Below, piece after piece: positions 1,180 through 57,260 of a stretch of 64,000 bases of DNA. How positions within the stretch are numbered: the stretch's first letter is position 1; each line of letters begins with the position of its first letter. The DNA lies in assembly GCF_030915465.1 (NCBI RefSeq), contig NZ_CP133267.1, positions 1,587,001 to 1,651,000 of the forward strand, written 5' to 3'. The notes beneath the pieces are model-generated. The model saw nothing but the letters and a program-made list of their open reading frames with translations, made no database searches and was not told the origin of the DNA. This DNA is from Neobacillus sp. PS3-34. Its GTDB lineage: Bacteria > Bacillota > Bacilli > Bacillales > Cytobacillaceae. The position numbers and the translations under genes were made by a program.

Positions 1180-2620
1180 GCTTCTCGGTTCTCCTTATTT
1201 TCGGTATTTTCAACACAACCTTCGTGCCGTGCCCCTTACCGCTTTCGATATCTATCACATCTTCATAACCATAGAAAAGACGAAGCCGCTTGACGACGTT
1301 ACTGAATCCAATCCCAGTCGAATGTCCTTCCGTTTGGATGTTATGCTCCTCCAGAATTTGCTGGATTTTATGTTCCGGTATCCCCAGTCCATCGTCTTCA
1401 ATCTCAATTGTCACCCTGTCAGCTCCATCTATAATGCGGAACCAAATGACTCCGCCTTCCTCCTTGGGTTCGATCCCATGAATCACAGCATTTTCGACAA
1501 TCGGCTGCAAGGTTAGACTCGGGAGCTCCACATGCATGCAGGACTCGTCGATTTCCATATGGAATTGGAGGCGTTCGGTAAACCTCGCCATTTGGATATC
1601 CATATATTGCTGCAAAACGATAATTTCTTCATAGAGAGTAACAGACCTGTCTATTCGCTTTAAGTTGTACCGCAATAACCCTGCTACGCTCACGAGCAAT
1701 TCGCTTGTTTCTTCAGATCCTTCCAAATAAGCCTTCTTGGAAAGTGTATTGAGCGTATTAAACAAAAAATGTGGATTGATTTGGCTTTGCAGGCTGCGAA
1801 GCTGACTTTCCTGCAGAAGGAGTTTGTTCTGCTGGAGTTCACGCTCGAGTTGTGCCTTCTCCTGAATTTCCGAAATAAGATTATTAATGTTGATACGCAT
1901 ACGATCGAATGTCTTGGCGAGAAAGGAGATTTCGTCATTAGACTTCACCTCAATCTGCAAATCGAACCTGCCTCTCGACAACTCGTTGGCCGCCTGAGTC
2001 AGCTTAAGTACCGGTCTCGTAATACTTAACGAGAACCAATACGTGATCACCAACAGAAGGAATGTAATCAGCAGCATCAGCCAGATGCCCAGCTTTTTTA
2101 TTTCTACGGATTGCTCGATTATACCGCGATAGAAGCGGTCATACGTCTTCAGCTCTGTGTCGAGCAAGGTGAGCGTCATCTCGGAAATATATTTTGAGAT
2201 GCGCGTTGCTTCCGAGAACTCTTTCGCGGAAGCCTCTGTTTCTTTCTCCGACTGGAACATGATGGACCGGTCAGTTGTTTCAATCAAACTATCAATCAGG
2301 TTGATATAGTTGGTCAATGCGAAATCATTCTCTGCGTTCCTTAGAACGAAAACATCGTATTTAGCGTTTCGAATTTTCTCCTTGCTCAGGGCAAACTGCT
2401 CAAGGTTAGCTGGAGACGGTTTAATCAAGTAGTTGTTCAGATCCATTATCATCTGCTGGCTCGCGGTCGTCACTTCGTTCAAGCGTATATACCGCTGGAG
2501 AATATCATTATATTGATTTTGTGTTTTCTGGTTGTAGTATGTAAGCGTTATCCAAATAGCCGCCATGATGAACAGAACGATCGTGGCGAGCATCCATATT
2601 TTCCTTTGAATTCTGTTCAT
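1154..2620 (-). CDS. yesM: YesM/LytS-type sensor histidine kinase
   Basis: This 488-residue membrane kinase has an N-terminal transmembrane helix (WMLATIVLFIMAAIWITL), an extracytoplasmic helical region of about 140 residues, a second membrane helix (LGIWLMLLITFLLLVITYW), a HAMP segment, a His_kinase domain with the phosphorylated His in QINPHFLFNTLN, and an HATPase domain (N box LQPIVENAVIHGI, G boxes DDGLGI and STGIGFSN). The start at 2620 is preferred over the upstream in-frame ATG because it overlaps the stop of the sugar-binding gene by four bases (ATGA). In this family the kinase often pairs with a membrane-tethered sugar-binding protein, which is its immediate upstream neighbour here. 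Ligand identity cannot be read from sequence. Confidence 0.92.
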   Translation of the reverse strand: MNRIQRKIWMLATIVLFIMAAIWITLTYYNQKTQNQYNDILQRYIRLNEVTTASQQMIMDLNNYLIKPSPANLEQFALSKEKIRNAKYDVFVLRNAENDFALTNYINLIDSLIETTDRSIMFQSEKETEASAKEFSEATRISKYISEMTLTLLDTELKTYDRFYRGIIEQSVEIKKLGIWLMLLITFLLLVITYWFSLSITRPVLKLTQAANELSRGRFDLQIEVKSNDEISFLAKTFDRMRININNLISEIQEKAQLERELQQNKLLLQESQLRSLQSQINPHFLFNTLNTLSKKAYLEGSEETSELLVSVAGLLRYNLKRIDRSVTLYEEIIVLQQYMDIQMARFTERLQFHMEIDESCMHVELPSLTLQPIVENAVIHGIEPKEEGGVIWFRIIDGADRVTIEIEDDGLGIPEHKIQQILEEHNIQTEGHSTGIGFSNVVKRLRLFYGYEDVIDIESGKGHGTKVVLKIPKIRRTEKHDKAPDCG

Positions 2621-3593
2621 CGCAAGTCCGACGCTTTCAATATCCGAATATCGGTGAGATAACCGTTCATATCGAGAGGAACCGACTTCCCTCTCAGCCA
2701 TTTCATGATTAGACTTACACTGATTTTCCCCATCATCTCAGGGGATTGTTCAATCATCGCGTCGAGTTTTCCTTGCATAAGTAGCGACAAAGATTCGGGA
2801 CCATCGTCGAATGAATAGATGTGATAAGGCTCGACCTGAGAGCGCCTGCCAATTTCTTGAATCATTGCCCCCGCGCTATTTGCATTAACGGCTATAAAGG
2901 CATCAACATTAGGCCACTGGTTCAACAAATCCTGTGTAATCGCGATTACCTGCTCCCTTGAATCAGCCGTTTCCGCATATATCATACGGACGTTGGGGTA
3001 TTCCTTCAAAACGTCTTGAATACCTTTCAGCCGCTGCTTCTGAAAATACTCCTGGTGACTGTCGCACATGAGGATGACTTTTCCAGCGGCGCCATGTCGG
3101 ACAACAGCTGCCTAGCAATCATCTCTCCCGCCAAATACTGATTAGAACCGACGTATGTTCTTCTAAGACTTTCCTCCATCGGCACGTCATTAGCCACGGT
3201 GATAATGGGGATGCCGTAGAAAGCGGCTTTCGTTTTCGTCAAGTTATTGAACTCGTCCGTATCAAGGCCCTGTACGATAATGCCGTCCACTTTCGAATGA
3301 ATAGCGATTTCCATCTTTTTTAAAAATTCCTCTTGGTTGTGTCCGTAACTCCCCCATACCTCAAGGCTCGCTCCCTCCTTCTTCGCTTGCTTAAGCGCGC
3401 CTAAGCCGACATTATCCCAGAATGGCGTCTCCAGCTCTTGAGTAATCAGAACAAGGCGATATTTCGCCTGCTTTTGGTCTGACGTCCGAGGCAATTGCCA
3501 ATCGGAGCGAAACACTTTTTTTGCGGATATGGCCGTAAAATAACAAAGGATGACGCATAAGGAGCAGAGTACGATTATGCCTGTTTTTCTCAA
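2617..3593 (-). CDS. Membrane-anchored periplasmic-binding (RbsB-like) sugar sensor, frameshifted
   Basis: An N-terminal hydrophobic anchor (TGIIVLCSLCVILCYFTAI) without a lipobox precedes a type I periplasmic-binding fold: YRLVLITQELETPFWDNV at the start of lobe 1, VDGIIVQGLDTDEF, IPIITVANDVP, then NVDAFIAVNANSAG and IYSFDDGPESL in lobe 2. A single base is missing near 3090 (the frame should continue into VILMCDSHQEYF). It is translationally coupled to the kinase (four-base overlap) and lies 232 bases downstream of the importer genes. The arrangement matches the XylFII-LytS type sensors known in clostridia, where a tethered xylose-binding protein docks on the kinase. Sensing of xylose or another aldose is inferred from that parallel. 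Confidence 0.82.
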
Positions 3594-13091: not shown

Positions 13092-14636
13092 TTATTTAAA
13101 CACCGGTTCTTTAAATTGAGCCAGCTTTTCTAATGAATTTTTATCAACATCAGCATGAAGGCTGTTTCCGTGTGAGTCCATTGTTACGACCGCGGTAAAG
13201 CCTTCAACCCGAAGGTGCCACATAGCTTCAGGAATGCCAAATTGCATTAAGTCGACACCTTCAACAGACTTGATGCAGTCAGCATAATATTGGCCGCTCC
13301 ACCGATTGCGTTCAAGTAAACTCCACCATGTTCGTTCAATGCAGCCAAAGTCTTAGGACCCATGCCGCCTTTACCGATAACTGCGCGAATACCAAACCGT
13401 TTCATAATATCACCTTGATACGGCTCCTCCCGGATACTGGTTGTTGGCGGGCTGCTTTCACATGCCACGCACCTGCTTCATCCTTCAGCATAACCGGACC
13501 GCAATGGTAAATCACTTGGCCATTTAAATTAACCGGTGCATCATGGTCAGACAGATATTTATGGATCGCATCCCTGCCTGTATACATCATTCCATTGATT
13601 TGAACCACATCGCCGACCTTCAGCTCACGAATCTGCTCTTCAGTTATCGGAGCCTGAAGGGTAATTATGCCCTCATTGGCAGCTGCAGCAGCTGTTTCTT
13701 TTTCCGCTTCTGTCTGTGCGAAATCGATGTTTTCACCTTCCTGGTACATCCAATCCTGAATCTCACCAGTTTCCGGACTTACAGTGACTCCCAGTCTGCG
13801 GAATGCCCAGCAGTTATAGGCAACTGAAACGAAGAAGCTGGCTGGAATACGATTAATTACTCCTGCTTTACATCCTAACAATGTAGTTTCGCCGCCGAAG
13901 CCCATAGTTCCAATGCCAAGTTTATTTGCATTTTCCATTATATAGTCTTCCAGCTGGCGCAATTTTTCAATTGGATTTACATCATCAACGGAACGGAATA
14001 GCTGCTCCTTGGCAAGCTCGTATCCAGAGGTTCTGTCTCCTCCGATTCCTACACCAATGAATCCGGCACTGCAGCCCTGTCCTTGGCCTGATAAACGGAA
14101 TGAAGCACACATTTACGTATACCATCAAGGTCGCGTCCGGCACGTCCTAGACCATCCAATTCACAAGGAAGGCTGTACTGGATGTTTTTATTTTCACAGC
14201 CGCCACCCTTCAAAATAAGGCGCGCGTCGATATAATCGTTTTCCCACTGTTCAAATTTAATAACAGGCGTTCCATCACCAAGATTATCTCCACTATTGTC
14301 ACCTGTTAGAGAGTCAACCGAGTTTGGACGAAGCTTCCCGTCTTTAGTCGCTTGGGCAATCGCAGCTTTAATTGCTTTTTTCATCTGGATCTGGTTAGCC
14401 CCGACAGGTGTTTTAATTTTAAAAGTAGGAAGCCCGGTGTCCTGGCAAATTGGAGATACTTGATCATCAGCCATTTTAATATTATTGGTAATAGTGGCTA
14501 AGCTCATTGCCGCCCTTGTACCGGCATTCTCTTTCGCTTTTGCCGCCTGGATTGCACGGCGCACATCTTTTGGAAGTCTTGTCGATGTTTCTACGATCAG
14601 CTTGTACATGCTTTCCTGAAATTTTTCTAAATTCAT
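13092..14636 (-). CDS. fumA: Class I (iron-sulfur) fumarate hydratase, three frameshifts
   Basis: Fumarase/tartrate dehydratase family enzyme that interconverts fumarate and malate in the TCA cycle. The N half (residues 1-280) has SPICQDTGLPTFK and LKGGGCENKN, which supply cysteine ligands of the [4Fe-4S] cluster, plus GIGGDRTSGYELAK and GTMGFGGETTLLG. The C half has TGRDAIHKYL, KRFGIRAVIGKGGMG and a conserved end (MWHLRVEGFTAVVTMDSHG). It is broken by single-base shifts near 14096, 13441 and 13275, but all segments are collinear and conserved, so these look like sequencing deletions. The start follows an ACCCCT-type (AGGGGT) ribosome binding site. Total length about 514 residues. Confidence 0.88.
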
Positions 14637-28669: not shown

Positions 28670-29072
28670 TTATCTCACCCCTAAAATACTTTTCGTATTC
28701 CAGGCAGCTCAGCCATCTTAACAGTATTTCCTGCCTTAGATCTGAAGCTTTGCGTCCCTATTTTTCAACAGGTTTGCCTTTTTCTGTGCCTGAATATAGT
28801 TGATTTCCTGAAACCTTACATCCTAAGAATTATTTGTATGTTCATTATATCTAGTCCATTTTCAGTAGGTTGTTGTTTTTTGTCATTGAAAACTAGTTAA
28901 TTAAGTACATTTTCTTCCAATATTCCTCAGTATTTAGGCACAAACTCCCCGTTATCAGGCAAATCAATCCATATTATCAACATATTGCCTTTGCTTTTGT
29001 AAATTAAGGGTGTTAATGGTCGAATTGTTTCTATGAATTTTCTGAATTTTAAAAAACTAATTAAAAAAACAA
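28670..29072. other. About 400 bases without a recognised gene
   Basis: The interval between the sinI start and the psuG terminator is AT-rich. No ORF with a ribosome binding site, repeat or clear structured RNA was seen; it presumably contains the sinI promoter. Confidence 0.5.
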
Positions 29073-29098: not shown

Positions 29099-30010
29099 TC
29101 ATTTAGTTAAATGGACAGCAATTGCTGCTCCAACTCTTGCATTGTTTTTAACGAGTGAAATATTTGCCACAAGGCTTTTTCCTTCTGTTAATTCCTTTAC
29201 TCTTCCTAATAAAAACGGAGTAACCTTTTTACCCGTAATTTGTTTTTGTTTGGCTTCCTTTAATGCGGTCCCGATGATTTCATTTATAAAGGATTCTTCC
29301 ATTGCATCCTCCTCTGGAATGGGATTGGCAATGACAAGGCCTCCTTTAAGGCCGAGTTCCCATTTTACACGGATAAAATCTGCGGCTTCCTCAGCCGAAT
29401 CTAAACGGAAATTTACCCCATATGGGCTTGTCCGTGTATAAAATGCAGGCAACAGGTCGGTTTGGTAACCTACAACAGGAACACCATGGGTTTCTAAATA
29501 TTCCATTGTCAGGCCTATATCTAAAATAGATTTGGCACCAGCACAAACTACCGCGACATTTGTTTTGGCAAGCTCCTGCAAATCAGCAGATATATCCATC
29601 GTTGTTTCAGCTTCTCGGTGCACACCACCAATTCCCCCTGTAACAAATACTTCAATTCCTGCTAGTTGGGCACAAATCATAGTGGCAGCTACTGTTGTTG
29701 CACCATTCTTCTTTTTTGCCGCTAAATAAGGGATATCCCTTCTGCTGGCCTTCTCAATTTCCCTGCTTGTTGCGAGATATTCTAATTCTTCTTCTGATAA
29801 TCCTATTTTGATTTTTCCTTCTAAAATAGCAATCGTCGCTGGAACAGCACCATTTGTACGAATAATTTCTTCTACTTCCTTAGCCATCTGGACATTTTGC
29901 GGATATGGCATCCCATGGGAAATAATCGTAGATTCCAGGGCCACAATCGGTTTACCCGCCAGTTTTGCATCTTTAACTTCATCTGAATAAGTAATGTAGT
30001 TTTCAATCAA
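29099..30010 (-). CDS. psuG: Pseudouridine-5'-phosphate glycosidase PsuG
   Basis: A 303-residue enzyme that cleaves the C-C glycosidic bond of pseudouridine 5'-phosphate to uracil and ribose 5-phosphate. Conserved PsuG blocks: [55 protein letters not shown] and [13 protein letters not shown]. It overlaps the stop of the kinase gene by four bases, so the two act in sequence and are translationally coupled. Confidence 0.94.
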
Positions 30011-31115
30011 TGTTGAGTTACTCCCTTACTGAAGTATTTTCTAAATGTCTCCTGAAGTTCCTGTGAATTTAAAGCCGGATTAACTGTTTCATATGACTGC
30101 AGTGTAATAATTGAACAGGCGGTGCCAATTTTACAACAACTTTCGATATCAAGCCCTTTTAGAAAAGCATATAAAATCCCGGCAATAAGGGCATCCCCTG
30201 CGCCTGTAACATCCAGCACCGGTATAACCGGAGGAAGCAGCACCCCTGCCTCCCCACTTTTTGTAAAATAGATTAAGCCTTTATCACCCCTGGTAATAAC
30301 GACCCGTTCTACGCCCTTTTCTAATATTTTCTTGGCCACTTTGAAAAAGTCGCCCTCTGATTTGATTTTGGATCCCGATAGAGCCTCTGCTTCTGACTGG
30401 TTGGCAATCAGCCAAGCCACACCATTGAGAGATGCAGGTAGTTTCCTAATTTTCGGAGCGGATACAGGTGCAATGCAAAGAGGAGTACCTGTTTCATTGG
30501 CCGATTTATAATTTTTTCTAAAACATCTGCAGGAAAATTTGTGTCTATTACAATTAAATCTGTGCGAAAATCGGCTGCCCACTTACTTTGAAGCAAGTCA
30601 ATATCTACATCATCGTAAATTTCCATATCCGCCAGGGCGACAGCCATTTCCCCATCCAGATCAAGAATCGCTGTGTATGTGCCAGTCGATTTTCCATCGA
30701 CTACTCCTACTGAGTGAATATTGACAAATTCCTTCGTCTTGCCGATTAGCCATTGCCCTTCCGCGTCATTCCCAATAAAAGACAGAAGGGAAGGACTGCA
30801 GCCGAGCCTGCCAAGATTCTCTGCCACGTTACGCGCTACTCCCCCACAGGAGATACTGCTCCTAGCAGGGTTGGAGCTACCGTATATAAGTGTTTGGACA
30901 GCCTGAATTTTCCGGTCAACATTAGCTCCCCCTATACATAGGACCTGTGGAGTTTTGGGAAGACAAGCCTGTTTTGCAGACTGTGCCATTGACAAAAGGC
31001 AATCCTGAATTTCATTAAAGGTTAAACCTGTTATTTCTGAAATTTCAATCTCTGAAAGCTGTGGATTTTCTCTAAGGATGTCTGAAAGTAAAGCTTTATG
31101 CCTGCTCATATTCAT
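30007..31115 (-). CDS. psuK: Pseudouridine kinase PsuK (PfkB family) with N-terminal winged helix, frameshifted
   Basis: About 370 residues. An N-terminal helix-turn-helix ([22 protein letters not shown], residues 8-45) precedes a ribokinase fold: [45 protein letters not shown], then [14 protein letters not shown] and the anion-hole/base motif [16 protein letters not shown]. One A is missing near 30515 in an A run (VLEK then NYKSANETG). It phosphorylates pseudouridine for PsuG. The N-terminal domain suggests added DNA binding, as in some YeiC-like kinases; this is inference. Confidence 0.88.
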
Positions 31116-31238: not shown

Positions 31239-31267
31239 AAGCTAAATCCTAATAAAGGACTTAGCTT
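31239..31267 (-). terminator. Terminator after motB
   Basis: A 12-base stem with one mismatch (AAGCTAAATCCT / AGGACTTAGCTT) preceded by A7 on the plus strand. It overlaps the motB stop. Confidence 0.87.
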
Positions 31268-32032
31268 CCGCTGCGAGGCAGAATTAGAATTTCAACACGC
31301 CTGTTTTTGGCTCTCCCATTTGGATCATTGTTTGAAGCCAACGGCTGGAACTCGCCGAAGCCCTTTGCACTGAACCACCTTGGATCCAATTTGTCATTAT
31401 CCAGGATAATTTTCATGAAATTAACGGCCCGCATCACACTCAATTCCCAGTTTGATTCGTACCTTGAGTTCCGAATCGGAACATTATCGGTATTGCCGCT
31501 GATAATGATATTCCTTGGGGGATCCATGATTAATAAATCGGCTATTTCTGAAGCTGTCTTTATATCTTCGGCCTAATTTCCGCACTCCCCGAATTAAAGA
31601 GAACGTTATCTCTTATCGAAATTAGCAGGCCCTCATCAGTCAGTGAGGTTTGCAGCTTAGTTGTCATTTTCTTCTGCTGAATGTAACTATTCACTTTCTC
31701 CTGCAAAGCCTTCAATTCTTCCCGGTCCTTTTTTTGCAAGGCAGAATCACTTTCTTGCTTTTTAGAAGTCTTTGTTCCCCCTGCTTCTTGAGGTTAGGGA
31801 CATCCATCGATCCATCGCTTTCCGGGCTTTGGAAGTCGAGCAAACCTGTCCCTCCAGTAAACATTTCATTGAATGCTTTTGACATAAGCTGAAATTTCTG
31901 AGCATCTACAGAGCTCATCGCAAAAAGAACGATAAAAAGGGCTAATAGAAGCGTAAGTAAGTCGGCGTAAGGAATGAGCCATGATTCATCCATATGGTCC
32001 TCATGATGCTTTTTCTTCCTTCTTCTACTCAT
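31261..32032 (-). CDS. motB: Flagellar motor stator protein MotB, two frameshifts
   Basis: About 257 residues: a basic N terminus, a single membrane helix with the proton-binding Asp (WLIPYADLLTLLLALFIVLFAM), a linker, and an OmpA-like peptidoglycan-binding domain (IIISGNTDNVPIRNSRY, NWELSVMRAVNFMKI, GFGEFQPLASNNDPNGRAKNRRVEI). Frame breaks near 31780 (G run) and 31574 need one added base each. It overlaps motA by eight bases. Anchors the stator to the wall and conducts ions with MotA. Confidence 0.9.
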
Positions 32033-33548: not shown

Positions 33549-34160
33549 TTAAATTTTCCCTATCATTTTAGGGTCGCGTTTCATTCCTGGCTTTCCCGGC
33601 ATCCAATTTGCAGGCACTCCTTCACCGGTTTTCTTTGCATACTGCAGGCCTTCAAGCAATCTCACATGTTCTTCAAGATTTCTCCCTACCTCACGAGGAT
33701 AAATGAATTTCGCTTCTATTATCATGTCGGGATTAATAAAGAAGGAAGCCCTGTATGGAGCTCCTGAATGCTCATCCAATACTCGATATGCCCTGCTGAT
33801 TTCATGATTTCTGTCACTCAGAAGCGGATAAGTAACATTTTTTAACGATGGGGATGTTTCAAGAAAAACTTTATGTGAATAAACACTGTCTGTACTTATT
33901 GCAAGCACTTCGGTATTTAATGCCTTCAGCCTGTTATGAACAGCGGCGACCGCCGCCAGCTCTGTCGGTCAAACAAAAGTAAAATCACTTGGATAAAAGA
34001 ATAACAGTATCCATTTTCCTTTAAAATCTGCGAGGCTTATTTTTTTAACCTGACTATCTATGATTGCATCAGCTGTAAAAAGCGGTGCCTGATCATCGCG
34101 CGTAGCCATATAGAATGATGGGCCTCCCGCCAGACCACTTGCATATAAATCGCTTGACAT
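33549..34160 (-). CDS. Peroxiredoxin with in-frame TGA at the peroxidatic position (probable selenoprotein)
   Basis: A 203-codon AhpC/TSA-fold peroxiredoxin. The frame is continuous from the ATG at 34160 (GGAGGGGGG before it) to 33549 except for one TGA at 33969-33971, codon 64. This codon replaces the catalytic Cys in [14 protein letters not shown]; downstream the protein stays fully conserved ([58 protein letters not shown]). No other cysteine exists: the usual resolving Cys before PANW is Val. A GGUC-loop hairpin follows the TGA at the distance of a bacterial SECIS. Read as selenocysteine it would be a 1-Sec peroxiredoxin. A base-call error for TGT/TGC is the alternative; unlike other breaks here, the frame does not shift. 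Confidence 0.8.
33945..33955 (-). promoter_or_regulatory. SECIS-like hairpin apex downstream of the TGA codon
   Basis: In the minus-strand RNA, bases +13 to +26 after the UGA (33943-33956 approximately) form GCGGC-GGUC-GCCGC: five G-C pairs closed on a GGUC loop at +18 to +21, extended by two G-U pairs. E. coli fdhF also presents a GGUC apical loop, at +19 to +22 after its UGA, where SelB contacts the G and U. The fdhF bulged U is not obvious here. Confidence 0.6.
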
Positions 34161-34277
34161 TAAATCTCCCCCCTCCTGCTTTTTCAATATATAAATATGC
34201 AGGCTAATCTCAATTGAACCATCATATTTCAAATGGAAATGGGAATGCTACAGGAGAAGACGAAAGGAGGGCTACTG

Positions 34278-46584: not shown

Positions 46585-46597
46585 GAATTCTCCATTT

Positions 46598-46635
46598 CCA
46601 TAGTTTTTTATAGAGGGTATCTGCTATGAACCTCT
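46598..46635 (-). ncRNA. PreQ1-I riboswitch aptamer
   Basis: The minus strand reads AGAGGTTCATAGCAGATACC, then CTCTATAAAAAACTATGG. This preserves the P1 stem (AGAGG with CCCTCT), the C/U-A-G loop 1 core and the A-rich tail AUAAAAAACUA of class I preQ1 aptamers, the smallest natural riboswitches. Its position ahead of queF and a terminator fits known queuosine gene control. Key conserved positions match by eye. Confidence 0.88.
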
Positions 46636-46673
46636 TCGGTATACGCGGTACAGTGTTTTTTCTTGACATAGTT

Positions 46674-56187: not shown

Positions 56188-57096
56188 CTATGAGAGGGCA
56201 AGGGCCAAACTTTCCTGGGCACCTGCCACCAATTCATCATTTTTTTTATCAGCACCATAAAGCAATAAAAGCAATGAAGTATAAATGCCTTTAAATTGAG
56301 CCAGCTGCTGGGTTTCTTCATCAATCTGTCCATATACGTCAAAGAACTGATCCCTGCTATCTGATGGCAGGAAGCTGTAGACTATGGATAGATCAACAGC
56401 TGGATGGCCAATATGAGTATCTCCCCAGTCGATGACACCAGAGATTAACCCTTCAGCATCGATGACAACATTCCTAAAATGTAAATCTCCATGGACAAGC
56501 ATCTTAATCGGACTCACTTTGATGTCCTCTAATGAGTTTGCATACTCCATTATGGCATTCTGCTGTTCAGGCAGCAGATTTCCCTGGATAGCTTTTTCGA
56601 TATTTTCCTCCAGCCGGCATTTTCTTTTTTCTATGCTCAACCGGTAATATTCGTCAAAAGGTACTCCCAAACGATGGGCCTGATCAACTGGAAAGCTATG
56701 AAGGCTTTTTAAAAATTCAGCCAGTGCGCCTGCAGATTGCTTCCTATGTTCTATGGTTAAGACCCCTGGTGTGATTCCTTTTACAGACTTATACCCTGTA
56801 AATGTCCATGGATAGTTCGTTGTTGGCATCCCTAGAAAAACAGGCTCCGGAATCGGCATCTTTAACATCCGAACAAGCTGTGGCAAAAGCTTTCTCTCAG
56901 TTTCCAGTAGTTCTACTGCCACTTTTCTTCGCGGGAATCGGAAAACATATTGTTTATTTACCATAAAAACAGTGTTATCGAAACCTTCTCCTAAAATATT
57001 AATATTTAAAGGTGCAAGCTGAGGAAATTGCATTGAAATGATTCCTTCCGCTTCTTCTGGGGTTAAGCTGCGCTCGGCAGACCAAATTTCCGTCAT
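56188..57096 (-). CDS. Aminoglycoside/macrolide phosphotransferase family kinase
   Basis: A 302-residue APH-fold kinase: nucleotide loop NINILGEGFDNTVFMV, Lys-bearing strand FRFPRRKVAVELLE, catalytic loop MLVHGDLHFRNVVID, and metal-binding VIDWGDTHIGHPAVDLSIV. The sequence groups with mph-like and choline-kinase-like enzymes of soil Bacilli; the small-molecule substrate is unknown, and resistance should not be assumed. GGGAG precedes the ATG at 57096. Confidence 0.87.
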   Translation of the reverse strand: MTEIWSAERSLTPEEAEGIISMQFPQLAPLNINILGEGFDNTVFMVNKQYVFRFPRRKVAVELLETERKLLPQLVRMLKMPIPEPVFLGMPTTNYPWTFTGYKSVKGITPGVLTIEHRKQSAGALAEFLKSLHSFPVDQAHRLGVPFDEYYRLSIEKRKCRLEENIEKAIQGNLLPEQQNAIMEYANSLEDIKVSPIKMLVHGDLHFRNVVIDAEGLISGVIDWGDTHIGHPAVDLSIVYSFLPSDSRDQFFDVYGQIDEETQQLAQFKGIYTSLLLLLYGADKKNDELVAGAQESLALALS

Positions 57097-57260
57097 ATTA
57101 ACTCTCCCATTCAGTACAGGTTTATTTTTCCCTATTATAAAGCTTGCCAAAACTCCTTTACAAATATAGGCAATTGAATTTCAATCATTACTTATGATTC
57201 ATTTTTCCAAGGATGGGAATATTAACAAACATCGACCTACAAACTTGAGGAGGAACATTT

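Follow-up and report, generated by a model that had tools for sequence, protein, structure and literature searches.

A predicted selenocysteine peroxiredoxin without cysteine in Neobacillus sp. PS3-34, and the TGA-bearing family to which it belongs

How should a peroxiredoxin gene be read when the codon for its peroxidatic cysteine is TGA? The question is posed by a locus in Neobacillus sp. PS3-34, within a 64,000-nucleotide stretch of contig NZ_CP133267.1 (positions 1,587,001 to 1,651,000; hereafter the window). On the minus strand, a gene extends from an ATG at 34160 to a TAA that ends at 33549 (33549..34160), with TGA at codon 64 (33969..33971) as its sole internal stop; read through, it specifies 203 residues. 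A first-pass annotation made from the sequence alone had described the 203-codon frame and its single TGA, with exact coordinates but without stating the strand, and had proposed that UGA is read as selenocysteine (Sec) in a peroxiredoxin of the PrxU type. It had also suggested aligning homologues at the site, searching for a SECIS element, and looking for the Sec genes in the full genome. The sequence AGGAGG upstream of the start (34172..34177, minus strand) is a likely ribosome-binding site, and a weak sigma-70-like promoter match (34186..34213, minus strand; 10/12) is no better than chance, two such matches being found in the region against 2.2 expected in shuffles. Elsewhere on the minus strand of the window, a c-di-GMP-I riboswitch (28700-28788) and a PreQ1 riboswitch (46594-46640) exceed their gathering scores, and a phosphotransferase with an APH Pfam domain (56188-57150) falls below the curated cut-off of all 24 NCBIfam families listed.

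The read-through protein matches the Pfam domain AhpC-TSA (PF00578) with an E value of 3.4e-37, and matches the Redoxin and 1-cysPrx_C domains as well. The best PDB chain aligns to residues 17-196 (E 5.2e-46) and the top structure matches span the TGA codon, in agreement with the earlier observation that the protein is conserved on both sides of it. Codon 64 aligns with the peroxidatic Cys of homologues of solved structure and of other peroxiredoxins, which confirms that the TGA stands at this invariant residue, and the AhpC/Prx1-group motif PxxxTxx(C/U) is present as P57, T61, and U64. The translation contains no cysteine at all, and codons 182-183 (33612..33617, minus strand) encode V182 and P183, with Val at the usual resolving-Cys position ahead of PANW; both features had been correctly recorded. 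A separate peroxiredoxin homologue, 42% identical and free of internal stops, is encoded at 1030437-1030952 of the same genome (G000), which was assembled as one contig of 4.9 Mb.

Alignment of homologues showed the site to be occupied by either TGA or a Cys codon. In 110 loci obtained by protein search (30 from one search and 80 from a second, several being the same gene in two collections), codon 64 is TGA in 90, TGC in 13, and TGT in seven. A further 15 loci brought the set to 125, and removal of the 20 Cys loci and of duplicates left 96 distinct TGA sequences. Ninety-three of these are at least 47% identical to the window protein and are treated here as its family; all 93 have TGA at the peroxidatic position. 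Identity across the TGA loci runs from 47 to 100%, except for L108, L109, and L112 at 42-43%, and the 20 Cys loci all lie below 47%. When the window's genome and 150 relatives were searched, 63 of the 151 genomes held a TGA family member among the matches listed, the nearest relative among them being 81% identical to the window protein and the remaining listed matches at most 45% identical. Three genomes (G014, G071, and G078) hold two TGA peroxiredoxins of the family apiece. A peroxiredoxin not counted with the 63 (L167; G032 contig 16, 682465-683022, minus strand) is 40% identical and carries TGA in the same motif, FTFVUATE; its sequence suggests a more remote Sec-peroxiredoxin.

Cys forms of the clade are scarce. 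With a Cys homologue as the query, a class-level search of 398 genomes gave matches in 15 at E values up to 1e-40, and a search within the family to which genome G119 belongs matched 2 of 43 at the same limit; every match was a TGA form, and neither search returned a Cys form of the clade. One Cys homologue of the clade was found in the protein database (P0016, from Alteribacter keqinensis, 53% identical). It is nested within the TGA clade on a tree of 48 selected rows, the window gene not being among them, with poor support for its exact placement.

A SECIS-type hairpin, identified by fold and covariation, lies just past the TGA codon (33942..33957, minus strand). It has a 6-bp stem and a GGUC apical loop (33948-33951), the spacer from UGA to loop is 17 nt, and the minimum free energy (MFE) of the 31-nt stretch is -10.8 kcal/mol. 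According to the text available from PMC13188914, the bacterial SECIS consensus comprises a loop of 3-9 nt, a stem of 4-16 bp, a G among the first two loop nucleotides, a UGA-loop spacing of 16-37 nt, an MFE of at most -7.5, and mostly an N1-N2 base pair flanking G(G/U). The window hairpin lies within every limit of that model. Since folding stability gave no signal beyond shuffles in any of three stretches (z 0.10, -1.21, and -0.67), covariation was used as the evidence for a SECIS. N1 and N2 occupy the wobble positions of codons 70 (Ala) and 71 (Val) and are therefore free to vary without change to the protein. In the 96 TGA sequences, a set that includes the window gene, the N1-N2 pair is standard in 94 (G-C 76, A-U 9, C-G 9); the two non-standard rows (C and A) are L108 and L112, which are of the PrxU type. 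Tree-based inference places five changes on each side and five at both together; whether the 1806 third-base pairs are ordered by joint change or by the share of sequences that pair, N1-N2 comes out on top. The adjacent stem pair, formed by codons 69/72, is of standard type in 92 of the 96 sequences and takes second place by share paired but only place 441 by joint change. Counts of third-base changes are lowest at codons 70 and 71, with five, and rise outward to 10 and 11 at 69 and 72 and to 16 and 13 at 68 and 73; they lie between 14 and 36 at the remaining codons (60-63, 65-67, and 74-89). The search for a SECIS that had been suggested thus yielded a hairpin downstream of the TGA, inside the published limits and with a covarying N1-N2 pair.

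The genes required for Sec use were likewise all located in the window's genome, albeit with the selB frame split. The selA match reaches 541.9 bits, where the cut-off is 267.9, and the tRNA-Sec scores 63.3 bits against a gathering score of 47 and is called by ARAGORN as tRNA-SeC with anticodon tca; a selB match is also above its cut-off. selD adjoins selA and has an in-frame TGA of its own, in SSKAGUGCKIGP, and a SelW-like frame with CMQU sits between the two. At locus L018, the SelW-like frame (2160-2399, plus strand) and selD (1477-2022, minus strand) likely represent two further selenoproteins of this genome, to judge from their in-frame codons. An Fdh-alpha search of the genome, with rough pattern inspection at six Fdh-alpha loci, revealed no clear extra Sec site. 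Across relatives, selA is above cut-off in all 63 genomes with a TGA peroxiredoxin versus 46 of 88 others (Fisher test 5.6e-13, uncorrected for kinship), and tRNA-Sec in 61 of the 63 versus 48 of 88 others; G002 and G122, the two of the 63 in which no tRNA-Sec reached the cut-off, are draft genomes. In total, selA is above cut-off in 109 of the 151 genomes searched. Selenoproteins had been held to be uncommon in Bacillaceae; the frequency of selA among these relatives, together with that of the TGA peroxiredoxin, shows that this does not hold for genomes near this organism.

The split in selB is the weak point of this machinery. In the window's assembly, selB (locus L010; G000 contig 1, about 350400-352310) is interrupted by a frame slip, with 479 residues in one frame and a further 149 in another, whereas it is one open frame in all 16 of the genomes with a match among 20 others searched. 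If the slip is genuine, the isolate may fail to make the Sec-peroxiredoxin, and the gene could be heading toward a pseudogene in a strain that has lost Sec insertion. We consider this improbable, as the gene is otherwise intact, retains the conserved hairpin, and has a listed relative as close as 81%. Moreover, several Fdh-alpha matches in the same assembly appear in pieces, and four window genes are each seen as two neighboring frames (2617-3593, 13402-14636, 30007-31115, and 31261-32032; a sugar-binding protein, fumarate hydratase, a pseudouridine-kinase-like protein, and MotB, respectively), which suggests indels in the assembly. Because other genes of the assembly are also split, the selB slip is likely an assembly indel too. 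The same frequency of frame slips might invite the view that the TGA itself is a Cys codon altered by sequencing or assembly error. This is barely conceivable: the codon is TGA in all 92 remaining family sequences as well, in many genomes and from two collections, and the Cys-homologue queries recovered TGA forms only (15/15 and 2/2). Because relatives carry TGA at the same codon, both chance and sequencing error are excluded as its source.

Two further readings accept the TGA and differ in what the ribosome makes of it. As a true stop, it would leave only a 63-residue peptide or a downstream fragment from an internal start, and support for this could be seen in an in-frame GTG at 33908 and in two deposited relatives (P0013 and P0034) that are downstream fragments of 136 residues. 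Neither piece would hold the peroxidatic residue, however, yet the family keeps the frame on both sides, and third-base constraint peaks just past the TGA; termination is accordingly very improbable. Decoding as Trp or another amino acid, through an altered code or read-through, could draw on the Trp that stands at the site in 13 of 18 database proteins examined, but these residues look like the product of gene calls with TGA set to Trp. Given that TGA terminates 4 of 30 large window ORFs inspected, that the site is that of the catalytic Cys, that the Sec machinery is present, and that the SECIS pair covaries, such decoding deserves next to no credence. By contrast, the conserved codon, the covariation in the hairpin, and the presence of the genes for Sec use all support the original proposal that UGA is read as Sec, and we are highly confident that the gene encodes a peroxiredoxin of the AhpC/Prx1 fold in which recoding of UGA64 places Sec at the peroxidatic site.

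In the mechanism envisaged for this Sec-peroxiredoxin, SelB bound to the hairpin just past codon 64 would bring Sec-tRNA(Sec) to the UGA, and the ribosome would then yield the 203-residue protein with Sec at its peroxidatic site. We infer that the product acts as a peroxidase. The general scheme for selenium peroxidases passes from selenol to selenenic acid with subsequent reduction by thiol, as outlined in the text available from PMC8533274. The selenol of the window protein would correspondingly attack a hydroperoxide to give a selenenic acid, to be reduced by a thiol, and since the protein is without Cys that thiol must come from outside, perhaps from a thioredoxin-like protein, AhpF, or bacillithiol. 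In the neighborhood of the gene at 51 loci, no ORF cluster clear of the gene itself occurs in more than nine, and for this reason no partner is proposed from gene context.

The PrxU type reportedly goes back to work by Sohling in 2001 on Eubacterium acidaminophilum. The corresponding NCBIfam model (NF040737) is the closest to the window protein, whose score of 174.9 bits nevertheless falls short of the 270-bit cut-off; the protein would work like PrxU while standing outside this equivalog. Eight rows were scored with the model: the clostridial L108 and L112, which have TGA at the same codon as the window gene, pass at 305 and 298.6; the values are between 139.8 and 176.3 for L071, L091, L104, L107, and P0016, and 120.1 for L109, a partial row. 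L108 and L112 are separated from the clade of the window gene by a well-supported branch (99/95). Hence the first-pass assignment stands as regards a Sec-peroxiredoxin but not as regards PrxU by the NCBIfam definition. The domains of AhpC, the typical 2-Cys peroxiredoxin (TIGR03137), are shared, but the window protein scores 156.3 bits, below the cut-off of 272, and is without either the peroxidatic or the resolving Cys of that group; a resolving-site Cys, the mark of typical 2-Cys enzymes, occurs in none of the 93 family members. Sixty-three of the 93 have a Cys at N-terminal position 18, where the window protein has Met, and from its distribution in the alignment this residue is a possible alternative resolving thiol.

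Sec-containing peroxiredoxin (Prx, TxxU) is a listed bacterial selenoprotein family (PMC13188914; PMC9312934; PMC5029168), for which the text available from one of these sources gives 91 proteins in 78 organisms (PMC5029168). The window gene shares with known Prx the peroxiredoxin fold, a predicted peroxidatic Sec in TxxU, a SECIS of bacterial type, and the Sec machinery genes. The available portions of the three sources name no member from Bacillaceae, and the Pro of the published motif PxxxTxxU is present in the window protein yet in only 47 of the 93 family members. Elsewhere, PrxU has been reported in Sulfobacillus thermotolerans, and three selenoproteins were counted for Bacillales in 2006, according to the accessible parts of the respective papers (PMC7409299; PMC1794560). 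The label 'selenoproteins related genes' has been given to peroxiredoxins from Bacillus cereus and B. altitudinis (PMC11076775); these are ordinary peroxiredoxins, UGA is not mentioned in the text available from that paper, and it was rejected as a report of the present family. In literature on selenoproteins and peroxiredoxins in Bacillus, Bacillales, and Bacillaceae and on PrxU, with subscription journals mostly outside its coverage, no title or abstract opening described the Bacillaceae clade. What is new seems to be not the kind of protein, which is known, but the size of the clade and its near-total dependence on Sec, missed by the annotations examined. Tentatively, and with somewhat more doubt than conviction, the sequences may be grouped as an unnamed and almost wholly selenium-dependent peroxiredoxin subfamily, distinct from PrxU and spread over Bacillales, Sporomusa, and Desulfosporosinus-type clostridia, that never relies on the usual resolving Cys; the Cys at position 18 could substitute for it in the members that have one, and in members free of Cys, like the window protein, catalysis would cycle through the single selenium alone, with bacillithiol or another external thiol as the reductant.

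The treatment of these genes in protein databases can be gauged from 18 sequences examined from the best 120 of 1118 matches. Besides the 13 entries with Trp, presumably gene calls in which TGA was translated as such, two have Cys at the site (P0016 and the more generic P0120), one has Asp, and two are downstream fragments. The fragments, P0013 and P0034, start four codons past the Sec codon. The entry with Asp at the peroxidatic position (P0093) is a metagenome protein that is possibly inactive or a calling artefact.

Collectively, these observations bear on annotation as well as on selenium biology. An annotation error is indicated, relatives such as the two fragments having been deposited without their active site, and genes for Sec use are evidently frequent among the relatives of this Bacillaceae genome. 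The hairpin is a clear natural case of SECIS covariation carried in synonymous codons. A protein with Sec and entirely free of Cys would, in turn, be a simple system for asking how a lone selenol recycles.
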